From Clostridia bacterium (lineage in GTDB: Bacteria; Bacillota; Clostridia; Oscillospirales; Acutalibacteraceae), in assembly GCA_017560255.1 (NCBI GenBank), contig JAFYOI010000001.1, forward strand, positions 1 through 64,000: a stretch of 64,000 bases of DNA, in the 5' to 3' direction. Numbering within the stretch: the first letter of the stretch is position 1; every line of letters begins with the position of its first letter. Positions 4,315 to 61,912 of this stretch are shown here, in pieces. Made by a program: the position numbers and the translations under genes. The notes below the pieces were generated by a model, which was given only the letters and a program-made list of their open reading frames with translations, ran no database searches and had not been told where the DNA came from.

Positions 4315-4316
4315 TT

Positions 4317-6450: not shown

Positions 6451-6462
6451 ATTTGATTGGAT

Positions 6463-7845: not shown

Positions 7846-7847
7846 CA

Positions 7848-10142: not shown

Positions 10143-10154
10143 GGCACAAAGATA

Positions 10155-10382: not shown

Positions 10383-10457
10383 TTTTCAAGCGAGTTTGAC
10401 GATTGTTCCACTTTTGATAAACCCTTTGCCGCAATTGTTGTTCTTGCGGCTAAAAGG

Positions 10458-11940: not shown

Positions 11941-11952
11941 GTTGTTGTGGAT

Positions 11953-23729: not shown

Positions 23730-24578
23730 ATGGCAACAAAGAAACGTATATCAGAACTTCCCGAAAGTACCGACTTCAAGGGATTATGGACTATCGGTGT
23801 GAACGCACTGAACAAGAGCGTGAAGGTATCGCTTGAATACATTTCAACGAAGGTAAGCCAACTTATCACTTCGGTGAACAGCGTAATATCAAGTGCAACA
23901 ACTGCAACCGATTCGGCTAATAGTGCGGCTTCTTCCGCTAATACGGCAGCATCATCAGCCAATACAGCAGCATCATCAGCCAATACAGCCAAGAAGAATG
24001 CGGACACCGCTACGGCAAATGCCAATGCTGCAACCAAGAGTGCGAACGATGCGGCGGCTACTGCAACCCAAGCGGCAACAACCGCTACCAATGCGGCAAA
24101 AACGGCTGATGAAGCAACCCAAGCGGCACAGCAAGCCAAGAAGAATGCGGACACCGCTACGGCAAATGCCAATGCTGCAACCAAGAGTGCGAACGATGCG
24201 GCTAAGGAATGCCAAGAAATCGTTGATGAAGCACAGAATACCGACAGCTTGAATCTCGTTCCTAAATCTATGGATTTGGAATATCCGAAGGAAATCACCT
24301 ACGGAAACCTTGCGGAACTTTTCATCAAGGCTTACTTATACCCTGCAAGCGTGAGGGGAAACGTGCTTTTTCTCGGTGACAACAAGGCTGTTTCGGTAAC
24401 TCCGGACGGTCGCATTACCGTACTGGAAGCAGGATTGAGCACAATCCATGTAATCCCAACCGGAAACACAGCGATATATCGGAGCATCCAAATCAAGGTG
24501 AGCAATCCTACTTTTCGGATGGTTCAGACACGGGCACAATTGCTGCTTACCGGAAGCGGAGAACTGATTTTGAACTAA
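23730..24578 (+). CDS. Alanine-rich stalk protein with C-terminal Ig-like domain
   Basis: A 282-residue protein. After a short N-terminal attachment region (KKRISELPESTDFKGLW), residues 50-165 are an Ala/Ser/Thr/Asn-rich repeat of a trimeric coiled-coil stalk type. The C-terminal 110 residues look like an Ig-like (Big2-type) beta domain (VRGNVLFLGDNKAVSVTPDG, then GLSTIHVIPTGNTAIYRSIQ). It is probably a tail-tip fiber holding the DGR-diversified protein encoded next. The stalk includes a long exact DNA repeat, so stalk length may vary. Confidence 0.65.
   Translation: MATKKRISELPESTDFKGLWTIGVNALNKSVKVSLEYISTKVSQLITSVNSVISSATTATDSANSAASSANTAASSANTAASSANTAKKNADTATANANAATKSANDAAATATQAATTATNAAKTADEATQAAQQAKKNADTATANANAATKSANDAAKECQEIVDEAQNTDSLNLVPKSMDLEYPKEITYGNLAELFIKAYLYPASVRGNVLFLGDNKAVSVTPDGRITVLEAGLSTIHVIPTGNTAIYRSIQIKVSNPTFRMVQTRAQLLLTGSGELILN
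23987..24055 (+). repeat. 69-bp direct repeat in stalk gene, copy 1
   Basis: Identical to 24134-24202 (offset 147 bases = 49 codons). Encodes the Lys-Lys-Asn-Ala-Asp-Thr-Ala type stalk unit; in-frame recombination would lengthen or shorten the stalk by 49 residues. Confidence 0.85.
24134..24202 (+). repeat. 69-bp direct repeat in stalk gene, copy 2
   Basis: Second copy of 23987-24055. Confidence 0.85.
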
Positions 24579-24592
24579 TAAAATTTTAATCT

Positions 24593-26032
24593 ATGGCATT
24601 AACAGCAGACCAAGAAGCGGTTGTAATACAGATTATAGCCGCATTTCAGAACGGCAAGCGACTATCAGACTTGCCACACGCAAAAGGTGAAGACCCGTTC
24701 TCGTTCATCGTTGGTGTAATGGAGGAAGGGGAAAGCAAGCAGACAAACATGTCCAAACTTCTGCCCTATCTTGAAGATGAATGTGCATACGGAATCCAGT
24801 TCGACACTTCGGTATCTTCACCGACTTGTACGAGAATCGGGAATACCGGACTTCACAAGACCTTGCCGATCCAAAGCAGGATGAAGGGATGCTTGCTCGA
24901 TGATGACGGTAAGGTAGTGGAATATCTCAATCCGAAAAGTTGGGAAGGTCATGTCCGTGACGGTTCACGTGGGCAGGTCATGGTTGAACTTCCTGCACAT
25001 TACAGAAAGTTTGAAACAAGCGGAACAATCAGACGTGTCCGCATTTCGGAATATCCATTGCCAGGCTATCATCTTGTACCGAAGCAATACGTTTCTGCAT
25101 ACGAAGCAACCGTACAGCGTTCAACAACGAAGTTATGTTCCGTAGCTAACAACGATGCGGACTATCGAGGAGGTGGAAACCAATCGGATTGGGACGGTAC
25201 ATATCGTTCCGTATTAGGTCGTCCTGCTACTTCAATCAGCAGAACGAATTTCCGTTCCTATGCAAGAAAACGTAAGACATCTACAACGGAATGGAACTGC
25301 ATGACGTATGACATTCAGAAGGAATTGTACTGGTTGTTCGTAATTGAATACGCTACACTCAATTCGCAAGCGGCATACAATGCGGCTAAGGATGCCAACG
25401 GATACGCACAAGGCGGATTGGGTGACGGTGTAACCACTTGGGACGGTACATCCTGGAGTAACTTCAACGGCTATCATCCGTTCGTTCCGTGCGGTCATAC
25501 GGATAGTTTGGGAAACAATTCGGGAACGGTTTCATACAACGTACTTGATTCAGCAGGTGCTACATTGAAAACATTCAGCGTACCTCGTTATCGTGGTGTT
25601 GAAAATCCTTTCGGGCACATTTGGCAATGGACAGACGGTGTCAATGTTCGTATCAGTCCGACATCGGCAAACGGGGGTGACGATTTGAGCAAGGTTTTCG
25701 TATGCTCCAACCCTGCATCATTCACCGATAGCAGTTATACTGGTTACAGCCATGTAGGCAATGAAGCACGTGCGGAAGGATATGCAAAGAGCCACATCTT
25801 CGGGGAATATGGGGAAATCATACCGGATGCTATCGGTGGCGGTTCCACTACCTACCTTTGCGACTACCATTATACCAACATTCCCACCTCGGAAACATTG
25901 CGTGGGGTGCTGTTCGGCGGTGATGCGACTAACGGTGCGGCTGCGGGCTTCGCCTATGCGTATTCGACTGACGTCCCCTCGACTACGGCTGCGTATATCG
26001 GTTCTCGCCTTTGCTTTATTCCTTCGAACTAA
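24593..26032 (+). CDS. DGR target protein 1, C-type-lectin-like receptor-binding tail protein
   Basis: A 479-residue tail protein whose last 45 residues are encoded by a variable repeat. The C-terminal half has the look of a C-type lectin/formylglycine-generating-enzyme fold (FGHIWQWTDGVNVR near 345, then RGVLFGGDA and the closing GSRLCFIPSN). The diversified residues sit on codons whose template is AAT/AAC, the usual scheme for a lectin-fold ligand-binding surface. Together with position after the stalk protein, this makes it the likely host-receptor binder, varied by the retroelement to change host range. N-terminal 330 residues would anchor it to the tail tip. Confidence 0.85.
   Translation: MALTADQEAVVIQIIAAFQNGKRLSDLPHAKGEDPFSFIVGVMEEGESKQTNMSKLLPYLEDECAYGIQFDTSVSSPTCTRIGNTGLHKTLPIQSRMKGCLLDDDGKVVEYLNPKSWEGHVRDGSRGQVMVELPAHYRKFETSGTIRRVRISEYPLPGYHLVPKQYVSAYEATVQRSTTKLCSVANNDADYRGGGNQSDWDGTYRSVLGRPATSISRTNFRSYARKRKTSTTEWNCMTYDIQKELYWLFVIEYATLNSQAAYNAAKDANGYAQGGLGDGVTTWDGTSWSNFNGYHPFVPCGHTDSLGNNSGTVSYNVLDSAGATLKTFSVPRYRGVENPFGHIWQWTDGVNVRISPTSANGGDDLSKVFVCSNPASFTDSSYTGYSHVGNEARAEGYAKSHIFGEYGEIIPDAIGGGSTTYLCDYHYTNIPTSETLRGVLFGGDATNGAAAGFAYAYSTDVPSTTAAYIGSRLCFIPSN
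25902..26009 (+). repeat. DGR variable repeat VR1
   Basis: 108 bases aligned to the template at 26504-26611. By eye there are 12 differences, all at template adenines (12 of 24 adenines changed to G, C or T) and none at other bases. This adenine-specific pattern is diagnostic of mutagenic retrohoming. Confidence 0.95.
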
Positions 26033-26116: not shown

Positions 26117-26479
26117 ATGAACAACAATGTAGAAAACATGGAAGATGACGGAAGTTTGGGTTTTCTGAACATTCCACGTGATGAGAACAGCAGAAGTTTC
26201 AATTGCGATGAGACAACACAATCGAAGTTGGTGAACACCACGTTTTGGGTTGTGGACTTCATAGAGGATGTTCAAACCAAGTTCAGCAAGCAGAAAGGAA
26301 CGAAAGGTCAGACGCTTGTCAAAATCAAGCCGGAAAAGGATAGTCCGGAAGGTCATGCCAAAAAGTTCTTCACTGGTTCGGCTGATATTCTTTACGTCTT
26401 GAAGAAAATCAAGGAATTGGGCAAGTTCCCAAGAAAGGTGACTTTGAGAGGTAACGGAAACAGATTCTATTTTGAGTAA
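26117..26479 (+). CDS. DGR accessory protein (unassigned family)
   Basis: A 120-residue protein between VR1 and TR, in the position where DGRs encode their accessory subunit. It does not look like the four-helix Avd: the N-terminal 35 residues are acidic and polar, and the rest alternates strands and helices (TTFWVVDFIEDVQTKFSKQK, LVKIKPEKD, HAKKFFTGSADILYVLKKIK, KVTLRGNGNRFYFE), compatible with a small nucleic-acid-binding OB-like fold. It probably aids template RNA or cDNA handling. I recall similar genes beside Bacteroides-phage DGRs but no function. Confidence 0.65.
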   Translation: MNNNVENMEDDGSLGFLNIPRDENSRSFNCDETTQSKLVNTTFWVVDFIEDVQTKFSKQKGTKGQTLVKIKPEKDSPEGHAKKFFTGSADILYVLKKIKELGKFPRKVTLRGNGNRFYFE

Positions 26480-26503: not shown

Positions 26504-26611
26504 GTGGGGTGCTGTTCGGCGGTAATGCGAATAACGGTGCGAATGCAGGCTTCGCCTATGCGAATTCGAATAACGTCCCCTCGAATACGAATGCGAATAT
26601 CGGTTCTCGCC
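26504..26611 (+). repeat. DGR template repeat TR
   Basis: A 108-base non-coding template with 24 adenines grouped as AAT/AAC codon positions, 130 bases upstream of the reverse transcriptase start. It matches VR1 over its full length and VR2 over its last 70 bases, differing only at adenines. The template RNA is probably transcribed together with the RT gene. Confidence 0.95.
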
Positions 26612-26740
26612 AATGATTTTCAACGGTTAAATTATTTTTCGGAGCAACGACCTTGCCACTCGGCAAAAGATTTCAAACCATCAGAAAGGGGTTGGTAGGC
26701 TAAAGCCGAACATCCCGAATATGAAAAGAAAAGCATACGG

Positions 26741-27769
26741 ATGAAAAGGATAGGAAACTTATACGAACGGATTATTTCGATTGACAATTTGCGTCTTGCC
26801 GATGAAAAGGCAAGGAAGGGCAAGTTGCAGTCATACGGTGTGAGGGTTCACGACCGCAACCGTGAAGCGAATATCCTTGCTCTGCATGATACGCTTAAAA
26901 GAAGGGCTTTCAAGAACTCGGAATATTCTACGTTTACGATATTCGAGCCTAAGGAACGGCTTATATTCCGACTGCCATACTATCCCGACAGAATATTGCA
27001 TCATGCAATAATGAATGTACTGGAGCCTATATGGGTTGGAGTGTTTACGACCGACACGTATAGTTGCATAAAAGGACGGGGTATTCACGGTGTAATGCGT
27101 GGAGTGAAACGGGCAATGAAAGACAATGAGAAAAGCCGATATTGCTTGAAGCTGGATGTACGAAAGTTCTATCCAAGCATAGACCATGACATATTGAAGA
27201 CCATTATCAGACGTAAGATAAAGTGCAAGGACACCCTACGGCTACTTGATACTATCATTGATAGTGCGGAGGGTGTGCCAATCGGCAATTATCTGAGCCA
27301 ATATTTGGCGAATCTGTTTCTGACTTACTTCGACCATTGGATAAAGGAGGTAAAGAAGATTCGGTACTATTTCCGATATGCGGATGATATGGTTTTCCTA
27401 TCTGACAGCAAAGAGGAACTGCACGGCTTGCTTGCCGACATCAAGTCTTACCTATCCTCTCTCAACCTTTCACTGAAAGGCAATGAGCAGGTTTTCCCGA
27501 TAGCATACAACCGGGAGGACAAGCACGGAAGGGGGCTTGATTTCGTGGGCTTTGTGTTCTATCGTAATCAGACACTTATCCGCAAGGGTATAAAGAAGAC
27601 GTTTTGCCGCAAGACAGCCAAACTGAACAGACGGAATGATTTGGATGCGAAAGCGTACAAGCAGGAAGTCTGTTCCTGGCTCGGTTGGGCGAAATACAGC
27701 GATTCTAAGAATTTATTGAAGAAAACCATTAAACCCAAGTATTATGAAACGTGCGTATTACGACATTAA
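26741..27769 (+). CDS. DGR reverse transcriptase
   Basis: A 342-residue reverse transcriptase. Motifs are in order: LDVRKFYPSID (138-148), VPIGNYLSQYLAN (179-191) with the IGxxxSQ form found in DGR enzymes in place of the QG of group II intron enzymes, and catalytic YADD at 213-216. There is no maturase or endonuclease domain. It would copy the TR RNA with errors opposite adenines, giving cDNA that replaces the VRs. It lies directly after TR and overlaps the next tail gene by 26 bases. Confidence 0.95.
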   Translation: MKRIGNLYERIISIDNLRLADEKARKGKLQSYGVRVHDRNREANILALHDTLKRRAFKNSEYSTFTIFEPKERLIFRLPYYPDRILHHAIMNVLEPIWVGVFTTDTYSCIKGRGIHGVMRGVKRAMKDNEKSRYCLKLDVRKFYPSIDHDILKTIIRRKIKCKDTLRLLDTIIDSAEGVPIGNYLSQYLANLFLTYFDHWIKEVKKIRYYFRYADDMVFLSDSKEELHGLLADIKSYLSSLNLSLKGNEQVFPIAYNREDKHGRGLDFVGFVFYRNQTLIRKGIKKTFCRKTAKLNRRNDLDAKAYKQEVCSWLGWAKYSDSKNLLKKTIKPKYYETCVLRH

Positions 27770-39443: not shown

Positions 39444-39590
39444 GATGATTAGTTCAACGGTAGAACGACGCAGGTTAGAGGTAAAATGGTTGGAGAAGGA
39501 TAATGCAAGCAAACTTTAACTCATGGTATAAATTTAAGGTTAACTAAATCAATAGGTGCGTAAGTATGGGTTCGAATCCTGTATCATCCA
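39443..39590 (+). tRNA. tRNA-like gene with an 84-nt anticodon-loop region (interrupted tRNA)
   Basis: Both halves of a canonical tRNA are present. Acceptor GGATGAT (39443-39449) pairs fully with ATCATCC (39583-39589); discriminator A; D stem GTTC/GAAC with a 7-base loop; anticodon stem ACGCA (39468-39472) pairs fully with TGCGT (39557-39561); T arm ATGGG-TTCGAAT-CCTGT has two wobble pairs. Between the anticodon strands lie 84 bases (39473-39556) in place of seven, so the insert is about 77 bases. This is too short for a known group I intron, and U33 is not evident. It may be an interrupted pseudogene, a tRNA with an unknown intron, or a tRNA-like RNA. Confidence 0.75.
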
Positions 39591-39636
39591 CAAAGCAATG
39601 CCGGAAGCTGTAAGAAGGCGAAAACAGAACAGCAAT

Positions 39637-40524
39637 ATGAGTGAAATCATTGAAATCAAGCAAGCGGAAGTCTTGCAGGCTATCAATCGTAGCGAGATTG
39701 ATATGCAGGTAGCAACAGCGAAGCAGTATCCGAGAAACCTGCCGGAAGTCTTGAACAAGATTGCGACATACGCAACTATGGACATTGAAACTGCGGAAGA
39801 TTGCTTCTATGCGTTGAGACGTAAGGGTAGTAACGGCGACCAGTTGATTGAAGGTCTTTCAGTAAGAATGGCGGAAATCATTGCAGGGGCTTGGGGAAAC
39901 CTCCGTGTTCAGACAAGAATTATCGGTAATGACGGTAAGACAATCACGGCACAGGGCATCTGCCACGACCTTGAAACGAACTTGGCGGTATCGGTTGAGG
40001 TGAAGCGAAGAATCACCGACAAGTACGGAAAGACATATTCGGAAGATATGCAGGTAACAACCGGGAATGCGGCATCAGCGATTGCTTTCCGTAATGCGGT
40101 GTTGAAGGTGGTGCCAAAGGCTGTAACGAAGAAAGTCATTGCGGATGTGAAACAGGTTGCGTTGGGTCAGTCGCTTGACCTTGAAACGAGCCGTCAGAAC
40201 ATGATCGCTTATTTTGCCAAGTTGGGCGTGACGGAAGATATTATCCTTGAATATCTCGGCATGAAGAAGCGTGAGGAAATAGACAAGGAAGCGGTGTTCG
40301 AACTTCGTGCAACGGCGAACGCTATCAAGGAGGGTACAACTACCGTACAGGATAGTTTCTTCAAGCCTATCGATGAACGCCGACAGGCGGAAGCGGCAAG
40401 GAAGAAAGCCGAAGAAGCCAAAAACAAGGCACAGGAAGCAATGAGCAAGCAGCGTAAGGGGTCTGCCAAGAGCGATGAAGTTCCGGCAAACGTAGATGCT
40501 GAAACAGGCGAAATAAAACAGTAA
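39637..40524 (+). CDS. Single-strand annealing protein candidate
   Basis: A 295-residue protein. The core (about 15-210) has NLPEVLNKIATYATMDIETA, a MAEIIAGAWGNLRVQTRIIG strand pair and AASAIAFRNAVLKVVPKAV, in the style of phage recombination proteins encoded beside YqaJ exonucleases. The last 60 residues are a charged, probably disordered tail. By position it would coat and anneal single strands made by the exonuclease. The family is not certain. ATG 39637 is chosen; an ATG at 39598 would start just after the tRNA-like gene. Confidence 0.55.
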   Translation: MSEIIEIKQAEVLQAINRSEIDMQVATAKQYPRNLPEVLNKIATYATMDIETAEDCFYALRRKGSNGDQLIEGLSVRMAEIIAGAWGNLRVQTRIIGNDGKTITAQGICHDLETNLAVSVEVKRRITDKYGKTYSEDMQVTTGNAASAIAFRNAVLKVVPKAVTKKVIADVKQVALGQSLDLETSRQNMIAYFAKLGVTEDIILEYLGMKKREEIDKEAVFELRATANAIKEGTTTVQDSFFKPIDERRQAEAARKKAEEAKNKAQEAMSKQRKGSAKSDEVPANVDAETGEIKQ

Positions 40525-40558: not shown

Positions 40559-41518
40559 ATGAGTTATACCATTATCAAACCAAAAGACCGCAAGGAATGG
40601 TTGAAACACCGTGAAAGCGGTATCGGGTCTTCGGAAGTCGGTACGATTCTCGGATTGAACCCGTTTGAAACGCCGTATCAGTTATGGCGTAGAAAGAAGG
40701 GATTGGATGCACCGAAGGAAGAAACCTTTGCCATGAAAGCCGGGCATTATCTCGAAGATGCCGTTTCCTGCTTCTATCATGATGCAACAGGCAAGGAAAT
40801 AATCAAGGCTTCGGCAGGTGATTGGCTTATCGTGAATAACGAGAAACAATATCTTAGAGTTTCGCCAGACAGAACATATTGGATTCCAGGTATGCCTAAG
40901 ACTAACCATAACAAGGGAATATTGGAATGCAAGACTACCCAACTGGAAGTGGATGCGGATAGTTTGCCGCAACATTGGTTCTGCCAACTTCAATACCAAT
41001 TAGGGGTTGCGGAACTTGAACAGGGTGCATTGGCGTGGCTTACTATGGGGCGTGATTTCAACTACCGTGACATCACATTTGATATAGAGTTCTACAATTG
41101 GATGATTGAGGGTGTCGATAAGTTTTGGATTGACAATATCCAAGGTAATCAAGAGCCTTTGCCTATGAATGTCAATGATATTCTTTTGAAAAATCCTCGC
41201 CATATTGTAGGCAAGACGGTAGAAGCGGATGAATCACTTGCTTTCCATTGCCGCAAGTTGAAGGAAATCAAGGAGGAAATAAGCAGTCTTGAAGGAGTGA
41301 AGAAGGAAATCGAGAACGAGATAAAGATGGTTCTCGGTGATGCGGAAGCACTTGTTGCACCGGGTAGTAATCCGGGGAATCCTACAATCCTCGCTACATG
41401 GAAGTCCGCTAAGGACAGCGTGAAATTTGATGAGAAGAAGTTTGCAAAGGATAATCCGGAACTCTATGCAAACTATCAGAACACCGTTCCGGGGTCAAGA
41501 AGATTTTTAATTAAGTGA
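40559..41518 (+). CDS. YqaJ-like viral recombinase exonuclease
   Basis: A 319-residue PD-(D/E)XK nuclease. The opening KEWLKHRESGIGSSEVGTIL and NPFETPYQLWRRKKG are classic YqaJ motifs; the metal-binding box is VSPDRTYW followed by GILECKTT (E-x-K), and QLQYQLGV follows. It would resect double-strand DNA ends for recombination with the annealing protein encoded upstream. The C-terminal third is helical with a charged coil. Confidence 0.88.
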   Translation: MSYTIIKPKDRKEWLKHRESGIGSSEVGTILGLNPFETPYQLWRRKKGLDAPKEETFAMKAGHYLEDAVSCFYHDATGKEIIKASAGDWLIVNNEKQYLRVSPDRTYWIPGMPKTNHNKGILECKTTQLEVDADSLPQHWFCQLQYQLGVAELEQGALAWLTMGRDFNYRDITFDIEFYNWMIEGVDKFWIDNIQGNQEPLPMNVNDILLKNPRHIVGKTVEADESLAFHCRKLKEIKEEISSLEGVKKEIENEIKMVLGDAEALVAPGSNPGNPTILATWKSAKDSVKFDEKKFAKDNPELYANYQNTVPGSRRFLIK

Positions 41519-41521: not shown

Positions 41522-41920
41522 ATGAAGAAAGGTAATTTTTCGGGCAAATTGAATTTGCTAAAATTTAAAAGTGCTTGCATTGTAAGTGTAAAGGGGAAGA
41601 CTGCTACAAAGAGAGGTGTTTTCATCCCTATTGAGGATAACAATATGTTTATTTCGGCTGACGAAGAAATGAAGCCGAAAGGGGCGTATGTAGATTTTAT
41701 CGCATTCGAGAATACGGAATTAGGAAGATACGGTGACACACACTCAATCCGTCAGTCTGTTGCAAAAGAAGTAAGAGATAGAATGTCAGAGGCGGAAAAG
41801 AACGCTATCCCGTTCCTTGGAAACATGAAGCCTTACGAAATTCAGAATGCCGCACAGGATGCGAATGCACCGTATGTTGAAACCGTGCCGGATGAATGTT
41901 ATGAAGATTTGCCGTTCTAA
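41522..41920 (+). CDS. SSB-like protein with acidic C-terminal tip
   Basis: A 132-residue protein with a beta-strand N-terminal half (LKFKSACIVSVKGKTATKRG, then GVFIPIEDNNMFI) compatible with an OB fold, and an acidic tail ending YEDLPF, which mirrors the DDDIPF tip of bacterial SSB. Next to the exonuclease and annealing protein, it is best read as the phage single-strand binding protein. The OB fold is inferred. Confidence 0.6.
   Translation: MKKGNFSGKLNLLKFKSACIVSVKGKTATKRGVFIPIEDNNMFISADEEMKPKGAYVDFIAFENTELGRYGDTHSIRQSVAKEVRDRMSEAEKNAIPFLGNMKPYEIQNAAQDANAPYVETVPDECYEDLPF
41571..41589. promoter_or_regulatory. Possible weak operator-like site inside the SSB-like gene
   Basis: GTGCTTGCATTGTAAGTGT resembles the 19-bp operator family but is less symmetric and lies in coding sequence, so it may be chance. 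Confidence 0.2.
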
Positions 41921-41930: not shown

Positions 41931-42161
41931 ATGTATCTTATCAGCAATCAGCAACGGCGTGAAATAACGGACTTCCTTACTGCATTCGTTGAGTTGACAG
42001 CCGACAATGGTAGCAACCGGATATTCAATATGAAACGCCGTGCCGGGTTGCTGATTAAGAAACTCAACAGGAAGGAAGAAATAGACATTAAAACATTAAA
42101 AGCAATAAAAGATGGATTCAAAAATAGAAGTGAAGAAGGAGGACTTGAAGAAGTTGTTTGA
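41931..42161 (+). CDS. Small hypothetical protein, recombination region
   Basis: A 76-residue basic/acidic helical protein (QQRREITDFLTAFVELTADN). No family recognised. Its 3' end overlaps the start of the second DGR target by 50 bases. Confidence 0.55.
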   Translation: MYLISNQQRREITDFLTAFVELTADNGSNRIFNMKRRAGLLIKKLNRKEEIDIKTLKAIKDGFKNRSEEGGLEEVV

Positions 42162-42699
42162 TACACTTACAAATTATCCTCAAATATCAAAAGAACAGGT
42201 TGAACATGAAATGAAGAAGACATTCGGCGATGATGTGTTCAAGCCAAAGGACATCAAGGAGCGTGTTAAGACATTCGAGGACGCTTGCCGTGAATTGGGT
42301 GATGAACATCCGTTTGTAAAGGAATGGCATTTGGGAGAAAATTTGAGTGAAGACCTTGAAGCGTATTTGAAGTTGAGAGTAATTGTAGCTGCTATCAATG
42401 AAGGTTGGAAACCTGAATTTACGGAAGACGAATGGCGTTATTATCCTTGGTTTTGGCTATACACACAAGATGAAATCAACAATATGCCGTGTGAAGAGAA
42501 GGTACGCAGAAACTTGCAAATCAAACAAATCGGACATTTTGCGGGCTTCGCCTCTGCGTATTCGAATAACGTCCCCTCGAGTACGGATGCGAGTTTCGGT
42601 TCTCGCCTTTGCTTGAAAAACAGCGAACTCGCCACGTATTGCGGAAAACAATTCATTGAACTTTGGATGAAATTCACCACCGTTCAAACAGGAAAATAA
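42112..42699 (+). CDS. DGR target protein 2 (remote VR2), non-structural early gene
   Basis: A 195-residue protein in the early, recombination/replication gene block. Residues 1-140 include a helical N-terminus and a WFWLYTQDEI motif. Residues about 143-166 are encoded by VR2 (GFASAYSNNVPSSTDASFGS, then RLCL), and a conserved-looking tail follows (ELATYCGKQFIELWMKF). It shares the GSRLC end of VR1 with the tail protein but is otherwise unrelated. Proteins with this WFWLY...GSRLCF...LA-YAGKQF layout are common in Bacteroides phages; function unknown. Diversification of a non-structural protein suggests binding to variable intracellular targets. Confidence 0.75.
   Translation: MDSKIEVKKEDLKKLFDTLTNYPQISKEQVEHEMKKTFGDDVFKPKDIKERVKTFEDACRELGDEHPFVKEWHLGENLSEDLEAYLKLRVIVAAINEGWKPEFTEDEWRYYPWFWLYTQDEINNMPCEEKVRRNLQIKQIGHFAGFASAYSNNVPSSTDASFGSRLCLKNSELATYCGKQFIELWMKFTTVQTGK
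42538..42607 (+). repeat. DGR remote variable repeat VR2
   Basis: 70 bases aligned to the 3' part of TR (26542-26611). By eye there are 9 differences, all at template adenines (9 of 18) and none elsewhere. VR2 lies about 16 kb from TR. Upstream of 42538 similarity stops. Confidence 0.92.
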
Positions 42700-43929: not shown

Positions 43930-43939
43930 TGTTTGACCC

Positions 43940-43979
43940 GTTCCCCCTGTGCTTTTCGTGGTTGCGGTGCAGGGGGAAC
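43940..43979 (+). other. GC-rich hairpin before the helicase gene
   Basis: GTTCCCCCTG (43940-43949) and CAGGGGGAAC (43970-43979) form a perfect 10-bp stem. It ends in A rather than T runs, so it is not a typical terminator and may be an attenuator or RNA-stability element. Confidence 0.45.
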
Positions 43980-43992
43980 AAAATTTCGCAAG

Positions 43993-45147
43993 ATGTACGA
44001 GTTAAGAGATTATCAGAAACAGGCGGTTGATTCTGCGGTGAGATTCTTTGCCAATCCGGTTAAGAGGAATGGCGTTATCGTATTGCCTACTGGAGCCGGG
44101 AAAAGCCTTGTGATTGCTAACATAGCCATTCAGCTGAATGCACCTGTCCTTGTCTTTCAGCCATCCAAGGAAATCCTTGAACAGAACTATGAAAAATTAT
44201 GCTCATACGGTGTTATGGGTGTCGGCATCTATTCTGCGTCCTTTGGACGTAAGGATGTGCAACGGATAACATTTGCGACAATCGGCAGCGTGAAGAATCA
44301 CAAGGATTATTTCAGACGGTTCCAGTATGTGATTATTGACGAATGCCACTTCGTGAATGCGGAAGCCGGGATGTACAAGGATTTCATCGATACAATCCAA
44401 TGCAAGGTGTTGGGATTGACAGCAACGCCTTACAGATTGTATTCTACCCGTTTCTATGGCTCTATGCTCCGTTTTATTACAAGAACGAAACCAAGGATAT
44501 TTGACGAACTGCTGTATCATGTACAGGTGAAGACTTTGTGCGATAGGGGGTATCTTTCGCCGTTGAACTACTATCAGATGAATGTGGTTGATACAAGCAG
44601 GTTGAAAGTGAACAGCACGGGTGCGGACTTTACGGATGCAAGCGTTAGAAGGCTATATAGGGAAATCAAGTTCAACGATAGCCTTGAAAACATCATCCAA
44701 CGCCTGCTGGTCGCCGGAAGGACTTCGATTCTTGTCTTCACACGGTTTATTGAAGAAGCGGAATACATAGCCCGTGCTTGCGGCTCGAATGCGGCAGTAG
44801 TTTCAAGCGATACAGCAAAGAAAGACCGTGAGGCAATACTTTCCCTGTTCAAGCAGAAGAAAATCAATGTAGTGGCAAATGTGGGTGTCCTAACAACGGG
44901 TTTTGACTTCCCGCAACTCGATACGATTGTTGTAGCCCGTCCTACGATGTCGCTTGCACTTTGGTATCAGATGGTCGGTAGGGCAATCAGACCTTATCCC
45001 GGCAAGTTGGGTTGGATTGTTGATTTGTGCGGAAATTACAGGCGGTTCGGTCGTGTGGATGATTTGACGCTCAAACAGACAAGACCGGGCATTTGGGCAG
45101 TCTTTTCGGGAAACAGACAACTCACGAACGTATTTTTTAACAAATAA
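43993..45147 (+). CDS. DEAD-box/SF2 helicase
   Basis: A 384-residue superfamily 2 helicase. Walker A is LPTGAGKS (31-38), Walker B is IIDECHF (DECH) near 122, and the SAT-like motif is LTATPYR near 150. The C-terminal RecA domain has LVFTRFIEEAEYIA and VGRAIRPYPGK with the arginine finger near 345. It resembles UvsW/YeeB-type phage recombination or replication helicases. The open frame extends to 43933 but the first ATG is at 43993. Confidence 0.85.
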   Translation: MYELRDYQKQAVDSAVRFFANPVKRNGVIVLPTGAGKSLVIANIAIQLNAPVLVFQPSKEILEQNYEKLCSYGVMGVGIYSASFGRKDVQRITFATIGSVKNHKDYFRRFQYVIIDECHFVNAEAGMYKDFIDTIQCKVLGLTATPYRLYSTRFYGSMLRFITRTKPRIFDELLYHVQVKTLCDRGYLSPLNYYQMNVVDTSRLKVNSTGADFTDASVRRLYREIKFNDSLENIIQRLLVAGRTSILVFTRFIEEAEYIARACGSNAAVVSSDTAKKDREAILSLFKQKKINVVANVGVLTTGFDFPQLDTIVVARPTMSLALWYQMVGRAIRPYPGKLGWIVDLCGNYRRFGRVDDLTLKQTRPGIWAVFSGNRQLTNVFFNK

Positions 45148-45172: not shown

Positions 45173-46027
45173 ATGGAAGGTTGGATAAGAATACAGAGGA
45201 CGATTACAGAGCATTGGATTTGGAATGACCCTGTAAAATTGAAGTGGTGGCTTGACTTGTTGATGTTGGCGAACTACTCCGAAACCAAGGTCAATGTCGG
45301 TTTGCAGATATATGAGTGCGGAAGGGGTGAGGTGATTTCAAGCCTTGGAGGACTTGCCAAGCGTTGGGGTGTGACAAAAGACCGTGTGAGGAACTTTTTG
45401 GTACTTCTTGAAAAGGATGCTATGATTTCACACGAAAGTTACACGAAGTTTACACGAATAACTATCTGTAATTATGATAGTTATCAGACTGATTTACACG
45501 ATAACCAAACGATTGCCAAACGCTCGCCAAACGATTGCCAAACGATTGCCAAACGCTCTATATATATTAAAGAAAAAAAGAATATTAAAGAAAACCCCTT
45601 ATCTAAAGATAAGGGTCAAAAGAAAGTTGACGAGCAACTTTCTCCTTCAAATTCGGCTGAATTTGAAGCCTCTATTCAAAGGGAAAAATTGCCGTCAAAA
45701 GAAATCAAGGATATTTGGAATGAGTGCTGCCCGAGTTTCCCGAAACTTCTCACAATATCAGAGAACCGTAAGAACAAGATGCGTAACCGCATCGCCGAAA
45801 TGGGAGGAGCGGAAAAGGCGTTGGAGATTCTGAAAGGCATTTTCCAAAAAATGGAATCATCCGCATTCTTGAAAGGCGATAACAAGCGTGGTTGGAAAGC
45901 ATCCTTTGACTGGCTTTTCGAGAATGACAAGAATTGGGTAAAGGTTTGGGAGGGGAACTATGACAGCAACAACCATTCATCCGGTAGTAAACAATCATCA
46001 GACGTAAACGACATATGGAACATTTGA
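45173..46027 (+). CDS. Replication initiator / DnaD-like protein
   Basis: A 284-residue protein. The N-terminal winged-helix domain (GWIRIQRTITEHWIWNDPVK, then GLAKRWGVTKDRVRNFLVLL, about residues 1-85) is of the phage replisome-organiser type. The middle is a low-complexity linker encoded over five 11-bp iterons (about 112-130) and basic stretch, and the C-terminal 120 residues are helical (FLKGDNKRGWKASFDWLFEN) like DnaD-type domains. It would bind the internal iterons and hand over to the DnaC-like loader that overlaps its end. Confidence 0.7.
   Translation: MEGWIRIQRTITEHWIWNDPVKLKWWLDLLMLANYSETKVNVGLQIYECGRGEVISSLGGLAKRWGVTKDRVRNFLVLLEKDAMISHESYTKFTRITICNYDSYQTDLHDNQTIAKRSPNDCQTIAKRSIYIKEKKNIKENPLSKDKGQKKVDEQLSPSNSAEFEASIQREKLPSKEIKDIWNECCPSFPKLLTISENRKNKMRNRIAEMGGAEKALEILKGIFQKMESSAFLKGDNKRGWKASFDWLFENDKNWVKVWEGNYDSNNHSSGSKQSSDVNDIWNI
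45505..45559 (+). repeat. Five 11-bp iterons, putative replication origin
   Basis: Five head-to-tail copies of CCAAACGATTG with small changes (the second and fifth read CCAAACGCTCG/T). They lie in the initiator gene and are followed by AT-rich sequence. The 11-base period keeps all copies on one face of the helix, as in iteron-type phage and plasmid origins such as lambda ori. Confidence 0.75.
45560..45600 (+). other. AT-rich region beside iterons, putative unwinding element
   Basis: ATATATATTAAAG and following A-rich bases directly follow the iterons. Such AT-rich stretches beside iterons usually melt first at origins. It also codes for a Lys/Ile/Asn-rich linker in the initiator. Confidence 0.5.
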
Positions 46028-46785
46028 AAGACATATTGGACAAAGTGAAATCCCGAGGGTTGTTCAATTCAATCGAACGGTTTACTTACAAGCCTTATGA
46101 TATGGATTATGCCTTGAAGGTCGTGAACGGGTTGGGAAGGAGCCGTACACCGAAATTCAAGATAGACGAAGAGAACAGATTCACTTACGAAAACCTTATC
46201 CGTTGGGTTCACGGCGACTCTGAAATGCTTTGCTTGAATCCGGAAACGAGGGAGCCAATGAAGGGAAGGTTGAATGCAGGAATCTACATTGCAGGAAACA
46301 CGGGTACCGGGAAGTCTTGGGCTTTGGAGATAATGACAGCATACAGCCTCATTGACAATGTCCAGTTTAAGGTGGATGACAATAACTGGTGCTTGCATTG
46401 GGAAAATGTAAGGGCTGATTCGATTTGCGAGGAATTTGCACGTGAAGGCTCCGTTGAGAGGTTCAAGAGAAGATGCATTCTCGGCATTCAAGACTTGGGG
46501 GCTGAACCTGTTGAAAGCCTGTATATGGGAAACCGTCTTGAAGTTCTTCGCTCTGTTCTTGAAAGCAGAGGTGACCGTACGGACCGCATTACGCTGATAA
46601 CTTCAAATTTCCCTATCAGTCACGTGAAACTGGCGGAGCGTTACGGGGATCGGGTGGCAAGCCGACTGGCTGAAATGTGCAACTACTTTGAAATAAGGGG
46701 GCGTGACAGGAGGAAAATTGAATTAAACAACGGAGAGCAACGAAAAGACTTGCCGCCAAACAAGGCTTCAAATGCAAGAAGATAA
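46015..46785 (+). CDS. DnaC-like helicase loader (AAA+ ATPase)
   Basis: A 256-residue AAA+ protein. Walker A is GNTGTGKS at 94-101, Walker B is IQDLGAEP near 162, and sensor-like ITSNFP near 195. It has the shape of DnaC/IstB-type loaders and would bring the host replicative helicase to the origin in the gene before. It overlaps that gene by 13 bases. No replicative helicase gene is seen in the genome, so host DnaB is presumably used. Confidence 0.8.
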   Translation: MEHLKDILDKVKSRGLFNSIERFTYKPYDMDYALKVVNGLGRSRTPKFKIDEENRFTYENLIRWVHGDSEMLCLNPETREPMKGRLNAGIYIAGNTGTGKSWALEIMTAYSLIDNVQFKVDDNNWCLHWENVRADSICEEFAREGSVERFKRRCILGIQDLGAEPVESLYMGNRLEVLRSVLESRGDRTDRITLITSNFPISHVKLAERYGDRVASRLAEMCNYFEIRGRDRRKIELNNGEQRKDLPPNKASNARR

Positions 46786-53867: not shown

Positions 53868-53889
53868 TAATTAAATAGATAAATAAAAT

Positions 53890-54429
53890 ATGATACAGAG
53901 GATAGTCACTAAACAACTTAAGAGGGTAGATGCTGTAATCGGTATAGACCCGGATGTAGAGAAAAACGGGGTTGCATACCTTGACTGCAAGACTAAAAAA
54001 CTGGAAGTTTCATCACTTGCATTTCCCGACTTGTTGGACTACATCCGTTATGCTATGCGTAGGGCAGAAGTAACACAGAAGAATATCCATATCGTGATAG
54101 AGGCAGGTTGGTTGAATAAATCCAATTGGCACCTGAATCCAAGAGATACGAAACAGATAGCAGCTGCCAAGGGGAATGCGGCAGGAAGAAACCATGAAGT
54201 TGGTAGAAAGATTGCTGAAATGTGTGAACACTGGAATGTTTCACATGAACTAATGAAGCCTCTTGCATTGAAGATTGGCGGCGTTCATCTTTGGAAGGGT
54301 AAGGACGGGAAGATAACGCACGAGGAGCTTGCTAAAATCACTGGCGTAACAGGGAAAACCAATCAAGAGGGCAGGGATGCGGCTCTGATAGCATGGATTT
54401 GGGCAGGGTTTTCCGTGAAATCAATGTAA
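53890..54429 (+). CDS. RuvC-like resolvase, second copy
   Basis: Wrap copy of the gene at 23-562. In this copy its true upstream region (53732-53889) is visible, with the G-rich tract and AT-rich leader. Confidence 0.75.
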   Translation: MIQRIVTKQLKRVDAVIGIDPDVEKNGVAYLDCKTKKLEVSSLAFPDLLDYIRYAMRRAEVTQKNIHIVIEAGWLNKSNWHLNPRDTKQIAAAKGNAAGRNHEVGRKIAEMCEHWNVSHELMKPLALKIGGVHLWKGKDGKITHEELAKITGVTGKTNQEGRDAALIAWIWAGFSVKSM

Positions 54430-54452
54430 AAACACCCTTTTTTAGTTTAGAA

Positions 54453-54471
54453 ACGCTTATAATGTAAACAC
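54453..54471. promoter_or_regulatory. Operator-like site, second copy
   Basis: Wrap copy of the site at 586. Confidence 0.45.
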
Positions 54472-54511
54472 TTTTATGTAAATTCGCCGAAAAATAGAAA
54501 AATACTCGAAT

Positions 54512-55303
54512 ATGAAGACAGAAGAAGTAAAACTATCACAGGTGAAGGTAAATAACGAGAATCCTCGTTCAATCACCACAGAGAAGTTCGCGAAGTTGGT
54601 GAACTCAATCCTTGTATTCCCAAAGATGCTGAATATCCGTCCGGTTGTCGTTGACAACAAAATGACTGCACTCGGTGGGAACATGCGTCTTCAAGCGTTG
54701 AAAGCCATTGCGAAAATGAACAAGGAGGATGTAAACAAACGCTTGTTGGCTTTAAATGACTTCTTGAAGAAAAGCGGAGGGGAGAAGAAGAAAATCGTTG
54801 ACTATTGGACTGAATGGCTTTCAAATCCTACCATTGAGATTATTAATGCAAAGGACTTGACGGAAGATGAGCGTAAGCAGTTTGTGATTAAGGACAACGT
54901 TTCCTTCGGTACATGGGATTATGATGCTTTGGCGAACAAATTGGATAACGGAAGCCTTGACGATTGGGGTATGGATGTGTGGAATGCCGCACCTACATCG
55001 TTCGCACCAATGGCACAATCACCAAGCCAACAATCATACATCCCGAACGAACCCGATCCAAGCGAGGATGACAATCCGAATGCACAATTCCAGGATGCAC
55101 TACCACCGGAATTGCAGGGGCTTGACCTAACGCCCGACAAATTGCCCGAAATCAAGGGTTCGGATGAAACGGCAATGGAACGTGTTATCATCGTCTATCC
55201 GAAGGAACGGTTGCAGGAAGTATTGAATCTGCTCGGTTTGACAGCACTTGAAAAGGTTGTTTACAGACTTGAAGAAATTCTACCCGAAGCCGATAAGGAA
55301 TGA
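54512..55303 (+). CDS. ParB-like protein, second copy
   Basis: Wrap copy of 645-1436. Confidence 0.7.
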   Translation: MKTEEVKLSQVKVNNENPRSITTEKFAKLVNSILVFPKMLNIRPVVVDNKMTALGGNMRLQALKAIAKMNKEDVNKRLLALNDFLKKSGGEKKKIVDYWTEWLSNPTIEIINAKDLTEDERKQFVIKDNVSFGTWDYDALANKLDNGSLDDWGMDVWNAAPTSFAPMAQSPSQQSYIPNEPDPSEDDNPNAQFQDALPPELQGLDLTPDKLPEIKGSDETAMERVIIVYPKERLQEVLNLLGLTALEKVVYRLEEILPEADKE

Positions 55304-55974
55304 AATACGAAGATTACATACGATACCACAGAAGGGGGGATGCAGGTGTAGAGGAAAGGATGATTGCTTCACTTGCAAGGCATTTCAATATGTCCCGTTG
55401 GGATAGTTTCAGATTTGCCTACTATTTCACTACAACTTACCATATCCCAAGTGCCTTGAAGTTGTTCTTCAATCCGGCAACACCGAAAAGCGAATTGAAG
55501 TTCAGAACGGATAGGCGGTATGTGCGTATCGGAGAAACCTTCCAACGGTTGATGAAACAACTTGTTCCTTCCTTGCTTGATGAACTTGACAAGGCAAAGA
55601 CCACAACGGAGCAATACGAAATTGTTTCCAGTTGGTATTTCTTCGGAAGGTACGCTACATTCCTGTTTCTTGAAGTCTGGTCGAAGTTGAGCGGTAAGCA
55701 AATAATTGACGACCTCGCACTTAATTGGGAGAAAGAAGAGAATTACACAAAGGGGGCGGTAATCGTTGCAGGTACGCAAGAAAAAGAGGCTCTTACGCAA
55801 TTTATCGAACGTGCAAAGAAAGATGCTGATGATAATGTATTCTCCCTTGAAACAAGCCTATGTGCCGTATGCAAGATGAAGAAGGGTACACGTTGGGAAG
55901 GTTACTACACCGAAAGACTTCTTGAAGATGTGAAGGGGTGTCAATGGGAATCTTTAATTTGGAGTTTGCTATGA
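55300..55974 (+). CDS. Amino-acid:DNA transferase-like protein, second copy
   Basis: Wrap copy of 1433-2107. Confidence 0.62.
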   Translation: MKYEDYIRYHRRGDAGVEERMIASLARHFNMSRWDSFRFAYYFTTTYHIPSALKLFFNPATPKSELKFRTDRRYVRIGETFQRLMKQLVPSLLDELDKAKTTTEQYEIVSSWYFFGRYATFLFLEVWSKLSGKQIIDDLALNWEKEENYTKGAVIVAGTQEKEALTQFIERAKKDADDNVFSLETSLCAVCKMKKGTRWEGYYTERLLEDVKGCQWESLIWSLL

Positions 55975-56507
55975 ATGCGAAAGTGATTTATGTTGCTGGT
56001 GTTCCTGCCTCGGGAAAGACAACATTGTTCAAGGGAATCCGTGAAAGATTCTTTTCCCGGTCAATAGAGTTCAGAAAAGGTAAGGCAAGAGGGGTTCAGA
56101 GTGAGGACGGTCGTTTCAAGATGCTTGGCGTTTTTGACGGCTCCACATTTGAAGGCACAGACCGTTTGAGCATGACGGTGATTGATGATGCTATATCCTA
56201 CATCAAGGGGCAGAAGGAACGGACGGTGATATTCATAGAGGGTGACAGGCTCTTCAACTTCCGTTTCTTGAACGAGGTAAGGGCAAGCGTCATTCTGATA
56301 GATGCCTTACCGGAAATCCTTGCAGAACGCCACAAGGCAAGAGGGGATAACCAAACTGAAACATTCCTTCAAAGTAGAAGGTCTAAAGTTGAGAACTTCG
56401 CACGGAAGTACAACATCCGGAGAGCATACAATAATACACCGGAGGATGGAGAAAGAATATTGAAATTCATCATTAAGATTGCAGAAGAATATGTGGAGAG
56501 CATTTGA
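55971..56507 (+). CDS. 5-hmdU DNA kinase-like protein, second copy
   Basis: Wrap copy of 2104-2640. Confidence 0.68.
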   Translation: MNAKVIYVAGVPASGKTTLFKGIRERFFSRSIEFRKGKARGVQSEDGRFKMLGVFDGSTFEGTDRLSMTVIDDAISYIKGQKERTVIFIEGDRLFNFRFLNEVRASVILIDALPEILAERHKARGDNQTETFLQSRRSKVENFARKYNIRRAYNNTPEDGERILKFIIKIAEEYVESI

Positions 56508-56919
56508 CCGTAACAGCATGGATGATGTAAGGCTGCTTGAAAACATCTGCCGCAATAGCGGAAGTCCATCGGTAAGGAAAGAAGCTGCTTATATCAGACG
56601 GGCTATTTATCTTACGAAGGACAAGCCGCAAAACCTGTGGTGTTGGATATACGATGATTGTGCGTTCTATATGTGTACAAGATGCAAGAAACACATTCGT
56701 GGTATTCTGACCGTAGTACACAAGGATATGCACAGGAAAGGCATTGGGAAACTCATCAACAACCACAGGCTTTGGATGATGAAGCAGGTAGGGATAGATA
56801 CATTCAAGTTCAGAACCAATCAGAATGAAGAAGCGGTAAATTTTTGGACTGCACAAGGGGCAAGGATTGTAGATGTGAACGGAAACGACTACGAAATGGA
56901 ACTTAAAATCAAATTATAA
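56491..56919 (+). CDS. GNAT acetyltransferase, second copy
   Basis: Wrap copy of 2624-3052. Confidence 0.7.
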   Translation: MWRAFDRNSMDDVRLLENICRNSGSPSVRKEAAYIRRAIYLTKDKPQNLWCWIYDDCAFYMCTRCKKHIRGILTVVHKDMHRKGIGKLINNHRLWMMKQVGIDTFKFRTNQNEEAVNFWTAQGARIVDVNGNDYEMELKIKL

Positions 56920-56924
56920 CGATT

Positions 56925-58181
56925 ATGCCAAACAAATATTATCAAAGTCCTCGTTGGAGTAATGAGATTGCAGATTGCAGTATGCCTATGACATTTGATA
57001 CATATAGCAATTGCTCATTTGGATGTCTGTATTGCTTCGCTCAATTCCAACGTGGCGTAGGTGATACGAAAGAAGCCTACTTGCATAAGGATGTCCGCAA
57101 TGTTTCGGTTGAGAGAATCAAGCGGATGTTTACTGACCCGGACAAGTACGGAGGTCAGTTCAAGGAATATATCAAGCAGAGAAAGGTCATGCAATGGGGT
57201 GGATTGTCAGACCAGTTTGATGGGTTTGAGCGTCAGAGGGGCGTTACTCTCGAACTTTTGAAATTCTTTAAGGAAATTGACTACCCTCTATGCTTCTCAA
57301 CAAAGGCAGCTTGGTTTACGGAGGACGACCGTTACATGAGCCTTATAGAAGGTCAGAAGAATTGGAACTTCAAGTTTTCAATAATTACGCTCGATGATAA
57401 GGTAGCACACATCATTGAGAAGGGCGTTCCTTCACCTCAAAAGCGACTTGATGCCATTGAACGTATTGCAAAGGCAGGTGCAGGAGGTGCGACCCTTCGT
57501 CTTCGTCCGTTCATCATCGGCATTTCTGACAAGACATACCTTGACTTGATTCGTGAGGCACACAACAGGGGTGCTGATGCAATGAGTACGGAGTTCTTTT
57601 GTGTTGAGATGAGAAGCCCGACCTTAAAGGCGTTCATGCCTACTTTCAATGAGGTGTGCGGATTCGATGTGATGAAGTTCTACAAACTCAATTCCGTTTC
57701 ATCTGGCTATCTCCGTCTGAACAGGAAGGTTAAGGAGCCTTTCATGCGTAATATGAAGAATCTTTGCGATGAGTTGGGTATGCGTTTTTACGTTTCGGAT
57801 GCTCACTTCAAGGAATTGTGCTGTAACGGTTCGTGCTGTGGACTTCCGCCGACATGGAATTATTCGCGTGGTCAATGGTGTGAAGCCTTGCAGATTGCCA
57901 AGAACAGCCCGGATAGTCTTGTACGTTGGGCTGATGTAAAGACTGACATCATGGGGCTTATCTCCCAATTCCAATGGATTCGTGCCAACGGGTTCAATTG
58001 CAATAGTTCTGAAAAGCGTGCCAAGTATGAAGGTATGACTATGGCGGATTATATGCGTTGGTTATGGAACAACCCTCAAAGCGGTCAAAGCCCGTACAAG
58101 TTGTTTGAAGGTGCATTGGTGCCAGTCGCAAAGGATGAGGAAGGAAACCTGATTTATAAATTCAATGGGGCAAGATTCTGA
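56925..58181 (+). CDS. Radical SAM enzyme, second copy
   Basis: Wrap copy of 3058-4314. Confidence 0.8.
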   Translation: MPNKYYQSPRWSNEIADCSMPMTFDTYSNCSFGCLYCFAQFQRGVGDTKEAYLHKDVRNVSVERIKRMFTDPDKYGGQFKEYIKQRKVMQWGGLSDQFDGFERQRGVTLELLKFFKEIDYPLCFSTKAAWFTEDDRYMSLIEGQKNWNFKFSIITLDDKVAHIIEKGVPSPQKRLDAIERIAKAGAGGATLRLRPFIIGISDKTYLDLIREAHNRGADAMSTEFFCVEMRSPTLKAFMPTFNEVCGFDVMKFYKLNSVSSGYLRLNRKVKEPFMRNMKNLCDELGMRFYVSDAHFKELCCNGSCCGLPPTWNYSRGQWCEALQIAKNSPDSLVRWADVKTDIMGLISQFQWIRANGFNCNSSEKRAKYEGMTMADYMRWLWNNPQSGQSPYKLFEGALVPVAKDEEGNLIYKFNGARF

Positions 58182-58183
58182 TT

Positions 58184-58738
58184 ATGGGAGCACCTGGAAA
58201 GAAGATGAAGGACTATCGGCAAGCACAGATCGTTCGTCTTGACATCATCGCCGGGCTTTACAAGCGTGGGTATTCCTACCGTGCCATCCGTGAGGAAGTC
58301 ATGGCAAGGCTTGATTTGGAAGCCTATTCGCTCCGCACCGTACACAAGGATGTTAATACGCTCCTTGAAGAATGGAGAAGGACACGGATTGAAAATTTCG
58401 ACCTTTCCGTACAATTGGAACTGGAGCGTATCGATGATATGATTCGTGAGGCATGGGCGGCTTGGGACAAGTCAAAGACCGACTATGAACGCAAGAAAGC
58501 GAAACAGCAGGGCGTTCCCGGCGGAGGTGATGATGGTGAAGGTGTCGTGACCGTGAAAATGGAACAGCAGAAGGAAGAAGTCATTTGCTACGGCGACCCT
58601 CGCTATCTTGAACTTGTGCATAAACTATCACAGGAACGCCGAAAGCTGCTTGGCTTGTATGCACCGGAGAAGAAAGACATCAAGAATGAGTTTTCATTTG
58701 CAAATATGTTGAAGGAAACAAGCGTAGATGAAGAATAG
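58184..58738 (+). CDS. terS: Terminase small subunit, second copy
   Basis: Wrap copy of 4317-4871. Confidence 0.7.
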   Translation: MGAPGKKMKDYRQAQIVRLDIIAGLYKRGYSYRAIREEVMARLDLEAYSLRTVHKDVNTLLEEWRRTRIENFDLSVQLELERIDDMIREAWAAWDKSKTDYERKKAKQQGVPGGGDDGEGVVTVKMEQQKEEVICYGDPRYLELVHKLSQERRKLLGLYAPEKKDIKNEFSFANMLKETSVDEE

Positions 58739-60317
58739 AAGGAAACAGGAATCGGATATGCGTAAGAACGCAAAGAAATTGTTTGCGGCTTGGCGTAAGG
58801 ATTGGAACTTGTTCATACGGGATGCCCTCGGGGTTACTCTTGACGACGAACAGAAGGCAATCGTATCGGCAGCACAAAACAGCAAACTCGTTTCGGTGCG
58901 TAGCGGTACGGCACGGGGTAAGGACTTCGTGGCGGCTTGCGTTGCTGTTTGTTTCCTGTACCTAACTCCGAAGTGGAACAAGAAGGGGGAATTGATAAGC
59001 AATACCAAAGTGGCTCTAACTGCTCCGACAGACCGACAGGTAAAGAATATCATGATGCCGGAAATATCACGCTTGTTCAACAGAGCAAAAAGAAGGGGAT
59101 TTGAATTGCCCGGTAAACTTAACACATACGACATCAGAACAGAAAACGATGAATGGTTTTTGACCGGATTTAAGGCTGACGAACACAACCATGAAGCGTG
59201 GTCGGGATTCCATGCCGTGAATACAGCATTCATTGTAACGGAAGCAACGGGTATCCTTGATGATACCTATTCTGCTATTGAAGGTAACTTACAGGGTAAT
59301 TCGTTGCTTATGCTTGTGTTCAACCCGAACACTACCGTAGGATATGCGGCAAGAAGTCAGAAGTCAGACCGTTGGAAGAAGTTCAGACTTAACAGCCTTA
59401 CGGCTCCCAATGTGGTAGAGAAGAAAATATCATTGCCCGGACAAGTGGATTATGATTGGGTGAAGGACAAGGTGGATAACTGGTGTGAACCAATTTCAGA
59501 AGATGATGTGAAGGAGAGCGAAAATGACTTCAAGTTCGAGGGTCAATGGTACAGACCTTCCGACCTGTTCAGAAAGAAGGTGTTGGGCGAGTTTCCGAAA
59601 GTTGATGAAGATGTGCTTATTCCTCAGACTTGGATTGAACTTGCACAGGAGCGTTGGAAGGATTATCATCTTGAATCTCACAATGATGCTTCCGTAGGTG
59701 TCGATGTGGCAGGTATGGGGCGTGACTGCTCCGTTTTCTGTTACAGGTACGGGAATTATGTTTCGCGATTCGAGAAACAAAATTCGGGAGGAAAGGCAGA
59801 CCACATGAAGGTTGCAGGAAAGGCATTGAACTTCATCAAGGCTCATTCCGGTTGTACGCTCTCGATAGACACTATCGGGGAAGGGGCAGGTGTTTATTCC
59901 CGTATCGTTGAGGTGTACGAAAATGAAGAATACATCATCAGTTGCAAGTATAGTGAGGGTGCAAAGGATTCAAGCGAAAACGACCTCACGGACATAACAG
60001 GGGAATACACATTTGCCAACATGAGGGCTTATCTTCATTGGTGCGTCCGTGATTGGCTTAACCCGGATAATGGTATGAATGCCATGCTTCCGCCTGGTGG
60101 CTCGTTTCTTGAAGAAGCAACAGAAATCAAATGGAGTTTTCTTAGCAATGGGCGAATAATCATTGAACCGAAAGAGGACATCAAGCAGCGTCTTGGGCAT
60201 TCGCCGGATGAATTTGACGCATTGGCAAATACGTTTCACCCGGATGCGGTGAGGATGACCGGAAAAGCAGTAGTTGAAGAAATGGACTACGAAGAATTGG
60301 AGGATATGTTATATTAA
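58728..60317 (+). CDS. terL: Terminase large subunit, second copy
   Basis: Wrap copy of 4861-6450. Confidence 0.88.
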   Translation: MKNRRKQESDMRKNAKKLFAAWRKDWNLFIRDALGVTLDDEQKAIVSAAQNSKLVSVRSGTARGKDFVAACVAVCFLYLTPKWNKKGELISNTKVALTAPTDRQVKNIMMPEISRLFNRAKRRGFELPGKLNTYDIRTENDEWFLTGFKADEHNHEAWSGFHAVNTAFIVTEATGILDDTYSAIEGNLQGNSLLMLVFNPNTTVGYAARSQKSDRWKKFRLNSLTAPNVVEKKISLPGQVDYDWVKDKVDNWCEPISEDDVKESENDFKFEGQWYRPSDLFRKKVLGEFPKVDEDVLIPQTWIELAQERWKDYHLESHNDASVGVDVAGMGRDCSVFCYRYGNYVSRFEKQNSGGKADHMKVAGKALNFIKAHSGCTLSIDTIGEGAGVYSRIVEVYENEEYIISCKYSEGAKDSSENDLTDITGEYTFANMRAYLHWCVRDWLNPDNGMNAMLPPGGSFLEEATEIKWSFLSNGRIIIEPKEDIKQRLGHSPDEFDALANTFHPDAVRMTGKAVVEEMDYEELEDMLY

Positions 60318-60329
60318 ATTTGATTGGAT

Positions 60330-61712: not shown

Positions 61713-61714
61713 CA

Positions 61715-61912
61715 ATGGCGAAGAAGTTAGCAAAGATTGTTTATAACTGCGAAGAATGTACGCATTCCTATGACCTGCATGAGAAGGGGGCTAACGGGCT
61801 ACCTTTCCTGTGCAGGTGTAGAGTGAATCCCGTGCGTTCCCGGTTTCTTAAAAAGGACGGTTGCAGCCAATTCAAGAAAGGGCTTTTGATATGGCAAAGG
61901 GAACAGATATGA
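61715..61912 (+). CDS. Small Cys-rich protein, second copy
   Basis: Wrap copy of 7848-8045. Confidence 0.7.
   Translation: MAKKLAKIVYNCEECTHSYDLHEKGANGLPFLCRCRVNPVRSRFLKKDGCSQFKKGLLIWQREQI

Follow-up and report, generated by a model that had tools for sequence, protein, structure and literature searches.

The window, that is, the whole stretch of 64,000 nucleotides that was analyzed, carries a DGR with the standard phage layout, in which a reverse transcriptase (RT), a template repeat (TR), and VR1 lie beside a PHROG 5302 tail protein, and a second VR (VR2) in a remote gene, target 2 (T2). The TR and both VRs were located by scanning the 53,867-bp circle described below, with mismatches at non-A template bases penalized.

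24593–26032, + strand: target 1, a 479-residue tail protein with VR1 at its C-terminus (phrog_5302, E 2e-139)
25902–26017, + strand: VR1, 116 bp; TR adenines changed at 15/27, non-A changes 0
26117–26479, + strand: 120-residue protein between target 1 and TR (phrog_19665, E 3e-40)
26504–26619, + strand: TR, from the scan of the circle, with an IMH*-like 3' end
26741–27769, + strand: DGR reverse transcriptase, 342 residues (Pfam RVT_1, E 3.5e-20; phrog_1423, E 5e-121)
39556–40524, + strand: PHROG 3657 protein, a recombination gene upstream of T2
40559–41518, + strand: YqaJ/RecE-like exonuclease, a recombination gene upstream of T2
42112–42699, + strand: T2, 195 residues, with VR2 near its C-terminus (phrog_11581, i.e., PHROG 11581, E 8e-63, residues 4–192)
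42538–42614, + strand: VR2, 77 bp; TR adenines changed at 12/21, other bases at 0/56
42597–42614, + strand: IMH-like 3' end of VR2 (CGGTTCTCGCCTTTGCTT), read from the sequence; same as in VR1, with TR differing at AATGA
43933–45147, + strand: SF2 helicase, a replication gene downstream of T2
45173–46027, + strand: DnaD/O-like helicase loader, a replication gene downstream of T2
46015–46785, + strand: ATPase clustering with DnaC-like loaders, a replication gene downstream of T2

The TR is located 120 bp upstream of the DGR-type RT, a feature that marks membership among DGRs. The 12 mismatches between VR2 and TR all fall on the 21 adenines (P = 8e-9 for random placement), and this A-specificity rules out a chance origin of VR2. 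The original prediction had VR2 ending at 42607, with adenine-only differences at 9 of 18 positions; over these first 70 bp we obtain the same count, and the match extends 7 bp more. Its coordinates for the T2 reading frame are correct, and its distance of about 16 kb holds for the TR (16.0 kb), the actual separation from the end of the RT being 14.8 kb. VR1 and VR2 have the 3' end CGGTTCTCGCC-TTTGC in common, where the TR reads AATGA; as expected from known DGR anatomy, these would constitute the IMH*/IMH pair. Both VRs read the TR in one common frame, in which AAY template codons become NNY so that no stop codon arises, and the encoded peptides are very similar. Even at a low scan threshold, only VR1 and VR2 were returned from the window and the circle, with no third VR.

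The PHROG 19665 protein, whose homologue adjoins the RT in 11/15 related loci, is a candidate DGR accessory protein. Directly upstream of target 1, the reading frame at 23730–24578 contains internal repeats of 21 bp with 126–168 bp spacing and codes for an A/T/N-rich repeat; it is probably a fiber or linker protein.

Judged by its sequence, the contig is a circular or concatemeric phage genome, of gut type, within a bacterial bin: its 77,994 bp run 1.45 times, without differences, around a circle of 53,867 bp. As a consequence, 10,133 bp are counted twice in the window, positions 1–10133 recurring at 53868–64000 with zero mismatches. When 295 genomes from the order of the bin were searched for T2 relatives with a single sequence, the window itself was the sole match, which makes the host assignment uncertain; the phage may have a host other than the bin.

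T2 is flanked upstream by recombination genes and downstream by replication genes, the DnaC label of the ATPase being transferred from its annotated homologue in phage Versailles, and two DNA methyltransferases lie beyond this ATPase. The gene had been described as sitting between an SSB-like gene and a helicase. The helicase is indeed downstream, at 43933, with two genes between, and the upstream neighbor (41522–41920) has no detectable SSB relationship.

VR2 in relatives and in near-identical strains

A tblastn search with T2 in annotated phages gave nine records, six of them LoVEphage-like. Four phages (one LoVEphage, Versailles, BT-TP2, and the crAss-like cr56_1) were scanned with the TR region against the tail and T2 regions, and in each of them the TR is matched twice, by VR1 in the RT-adjacent tail gene and by VR2 within the homologue of T2. 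TR adenines are changed in VR2 at 12/26 positions in LoVEphage, 14/22 in Versailles, 18/24 in cr56_1, and 14/33 in BT-TP2, with no change at other bases in any of them. With a T2 profile search the family grew by 80 viral loci, taken from 307 relatives, and by 57 loci in genomes. Among the larger viral (IMG/VR) records, 29/37 contain the RT. Their RT-adjacent TR matches VR2 in 27 cases, with changes at 434/704 TR adenines vs 12/2078 other bases; nearly all of the 27 carry VR1 beside the RT as well. On these linear contigs, RT and T2 are separated by 1.0–56.6 kb, with a median of 20.9 kb. The same TR/VR2 match was found in 17 of the 22 bacterial genomes tested (263/448 TR adenines changed vs 4/1353 others). 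Within the family, four loci (L138, L143, L132, and L150) have T2 genes with shortened or decayed-looking VR regions; an RT match is present in the L143 record and there is none in those of L132 and L150.

Comparison of closely related genomes indicates that VR2 is in use. Six LoVEphage-like genomes have an identical TR and a VR2 that is variable at 23/26 TR-A positions and at 0/87 others; between two of their number, OY731433 and MW660583, 20 differences in VR2 contrast with 1 in 1072 flanking bases. Five pairs from other phage lineages show 0 changes in approximately 400 bp outside VR2 and 9–14 inside, 56/57 of which are at TR adenines, and all 15 VR2 changes of a sixth, more distant pair are at such positions. 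The original prediction had regarded a VR2 that is invariant in relatives, or changes at non-A positions, as evidence against it, and near-identical relatives instead vary in VR2 at TR adenines. One could imagine that VR2 is an inactive relic, left by gene conversion or by a duplication, long ago, of the tail-gene VR; the close similarity of the VR1 and VR2 peptides and the few family members with decayed-looking VRs, i.e., the four loci mentioned above, would fit. However, near-identical strains differ almost solely at TR-A positions within VR2, which refutes a relic in the relatives and makes it most improbable overall. For the window phage, an A-masked TR pattern revealed no close strain in IMG/VR, and 98 related genomes scanned with it gave back the three copies already known and no others, so activity has to be argued from the relatives. 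On these sequence comparisons, VR2 is a true and active DGR target, in the window phage by extension from its relatives.

Family, location, and predicted fold of target 2

The PHROG 11581 profile spans the whole T2 protein and is matched by 94/94 aligned homologues. It is the only match that the protein libraries gave, a family annotated as 'unknown function'; Pfam, NCBIfam, PADLOC, and PDB sequences returned none. T2 thus has no match among the known anti-phage defense families in PADLOC, Pfam, and NCBIfam, PADLOC being a collection of defense rather than counter-defense systems. Replication or recombination genes occur within 6 kb of T2 in 52/81 non-redundant loci, and the LoVEphage homologue is near several methyltransferase genes. 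Judged by gene content, T2 is most likely non-structural, and the proposal that one DGR diversifies two unlike proteins, the second encoded by a non-tail gene, is borne out, T2 relatives being found among early genes in many phages.

T2 could still be a virion or ejected protein merely encoded in the early region, its variable segment binding the host surface or being injected. This would agree with known phage DGR targets, mostly tail ligand binders (PMC8144416), and with one database in which the Versailles homologue is annotated as a 'tail protein'. However, the PHROG tail match of T2 corresponds to the TR-derived stretch alone (residues 141–171), many phages that are unrelated to each other carry T2 amid genes for recombination, replication, or methyltransferases, and in Mu-like prophages the entire cassette is placed in the early block, away from the packaging genes. 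We thus consider a virion protein quite unlikely. T2 of the window displays no membrane or signal-peptide-like stretch (maximum KD 0.71); among its homologues a hydrophobic, signal-peptide-like N-terminus is seen in 0/127, and any stretch above 1.6 in 8/127.

The prophage cassettes come from a group of Bacteroidota loci in which two or three tandem PHROG 11581 genes, each with a VR, lie immediately upstream of the TR and RT. Part of this group consists of Mu-like prophages, which also encode MuA-like and MuB-like proteins, a terminase, and a portal; in four of them (L218, L221, L226, and L233, around position 10000–12000) the two or three tandem genes, TR, and RT are in the early block. No further VR, including a tail VR, was detected in the four loci tested within the additional 20–40 kb fetched, a span that covers the late genes in part; these cassettes hence look like DGRs devoted to T2.

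AlphaFold2 (AF2) modeling provides a first view of the scaffold. For T2 of the window (mean pLDDT 84.9) and for a short relative (84.6), the predicted structures are helical on either side of the VR, with pLDDT values of 47–60 inside the VR region. A fold search with the two models against the PDB gave no match at E ≤ 0.001, and matches among viral models were uncharacterized relatives only. Outside the helices there remain approximately 70 residues, which a full C-type lectin domain would exceed, and the scaffold is thus predicted to be helical and too short for such a domain. This supports the earlier view that T2 misses the lectin domain of target 1, insofar as the full domain is absent from the two helical models. 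The VR of T2, modeled with low confidence, may nevertheless hold a partial, lectin-like hairpin, since the TR imposes nearly the same peptide on both targets.

Proposed mechanism and relation to known systems

Based on the above data, we propose, with a probability of about 0.8 for the explanation as a whole, that VR2 is a working second VR of the phage's own DGR and that T2 is a non-virion early binder. The RT would copy the TR RNA, misincorporating opposite adenines, and the resulting cDNA would home into VR1 of the tail protein and, in trans across approximately 15 kb, into VR2, presumably in an RT-dependent manner, with the IMH-like 3' end that the two VRs have in common as the guide. The outcome would be T2 variants with a constant, mostly helical scaffold, comprising the first ~110 residues plus two paired helices at the C-terminus, which may display approximately ten randomized residues in one surface segment. 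As a non-virion early protein, T2 would presumably remain within the cell, where its most likely use would be to bind a variable partner, either a host defense or host-takeover factor or the product of a rival phage. We thus favor T2 as a binder, diversified and probably intracellular, whose partner would be a variable factor of the host or of a rival phage. A function in counter-defense specifically is plausible, and we put it forward tentatively.

A related possibility is that T2 is a factor of phage–phage conflict, in superinfection exclusion or lysogenic immunity, whose variable segment matches rival phages and not host proteins. Many T2 carriers are temperate, as judged by an integrase or MuA/MuB, and gut prophages commonly carry the family, as might be anticipated for such a factor. 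However, the T2 gene belongs to lytic early operons and is not beside repressor or lysogenic-conversion genes, so that this role appears unlikely. Taking the intracellular binder further, we see a nearly even chance that PHROG 11581 constitutes a dedicated class of intracellular DGR-diversified binders, built on a scaffold of its own that is mainly helical and not a lectin. Throughout the Bacteroidota phages such a binder would serve as a remote second target in some cases; in others, namely Mu-like and other prophages, two or three tandem copies would be the targets of a stand-alone early cassette that has no tail target. In either arrangement it would be aimed at a variable intracellular partner.

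With the DGR of BPP-1 (mtd), the reference for phages, the window phage shares the RT, TR, A-specific variation, VR at the 3' end of the target, and IMH/IMH* elements; BPP-1 has a single tail target, whereas the window phage has a remote second one and a PHROG 19665 protein in place of a recognized Avd. Phage DGRs with two targets are also known in the Bacuni (PMC8143477) and tentaclin (PMC10743442) phages, with one Bacuni target far from the RT, but the published descriptions assign lectin folds, and a role in host adhesion or the tail, to both targets there. The closest precedent is Quimbyvirus ('Quimbyviridae'; Benler 2021, PMC8008677), where a distal, non-structural second target among defense-related genes was described as unprecedented in phages. 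As in the window phage, one DGR serves two VRs, the second in a distal non-structural gene, which in Quimbyvirus is near methyltransferases, a MutY-like gene, and a tRNA ligase, and near-identical genomes show A-specific variation as the T2 relatives do. That account concerns one genus and calls both targets C-type lectin proteins, whereas T2 represents one family across unrelated phages, located in a recombination/replication block and too short for a full lectin. It is worth noting that one B. dorei prophage (CP011531.1) is matched by Quimbyvirus, apparently LoVEphage-like, as well as by LoVEphage itself and that the T2 neighborhood of LoVEphage fits the published description of the second Quimbyvirus target; on these grounds that target, compared by description and not by reading frame, is probably a T2 homologue.

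A second precedent (Nature 2025, PMC12629997) reports four species of gut prophages with a distal second VR near counter-defense genes; its main text presents these double-VR prophages without a protein family, fold, or strain-level test. The window phage therefore joins an already known kind of remote non-structural second target, and the novelty implied by the original prediction was overstated in light of these two reports. What appears new, in that we did not find it in the accessible literature (as distinct from supplements and many subscription papers), is the family-wide generality, the tandem-only prophage cassettes, and the argument for a helical scaffold.

DGRs are regarded as a means of varying surface ligands. 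Surveys restricted to RT-adjacent targets, one of which states that remote targets would go undetected (PMC8144416), overlook a whole class of targets. With one TR for both, neither the tail protein nor the early protein can depart from the common VR scaffold, a coupling that is interesting in itself. Since the T2 family is widespread and present in isolates (LoVEphage-like phages, BT-TP2, and Versailles), with strain variation that is visible, its partner and phenotype can be searched for directly. Lastly, dozens of gut phages diversify a conserved early protein alongside their tail tip; the implication is that rapid variation is needed against something intracellular as well.
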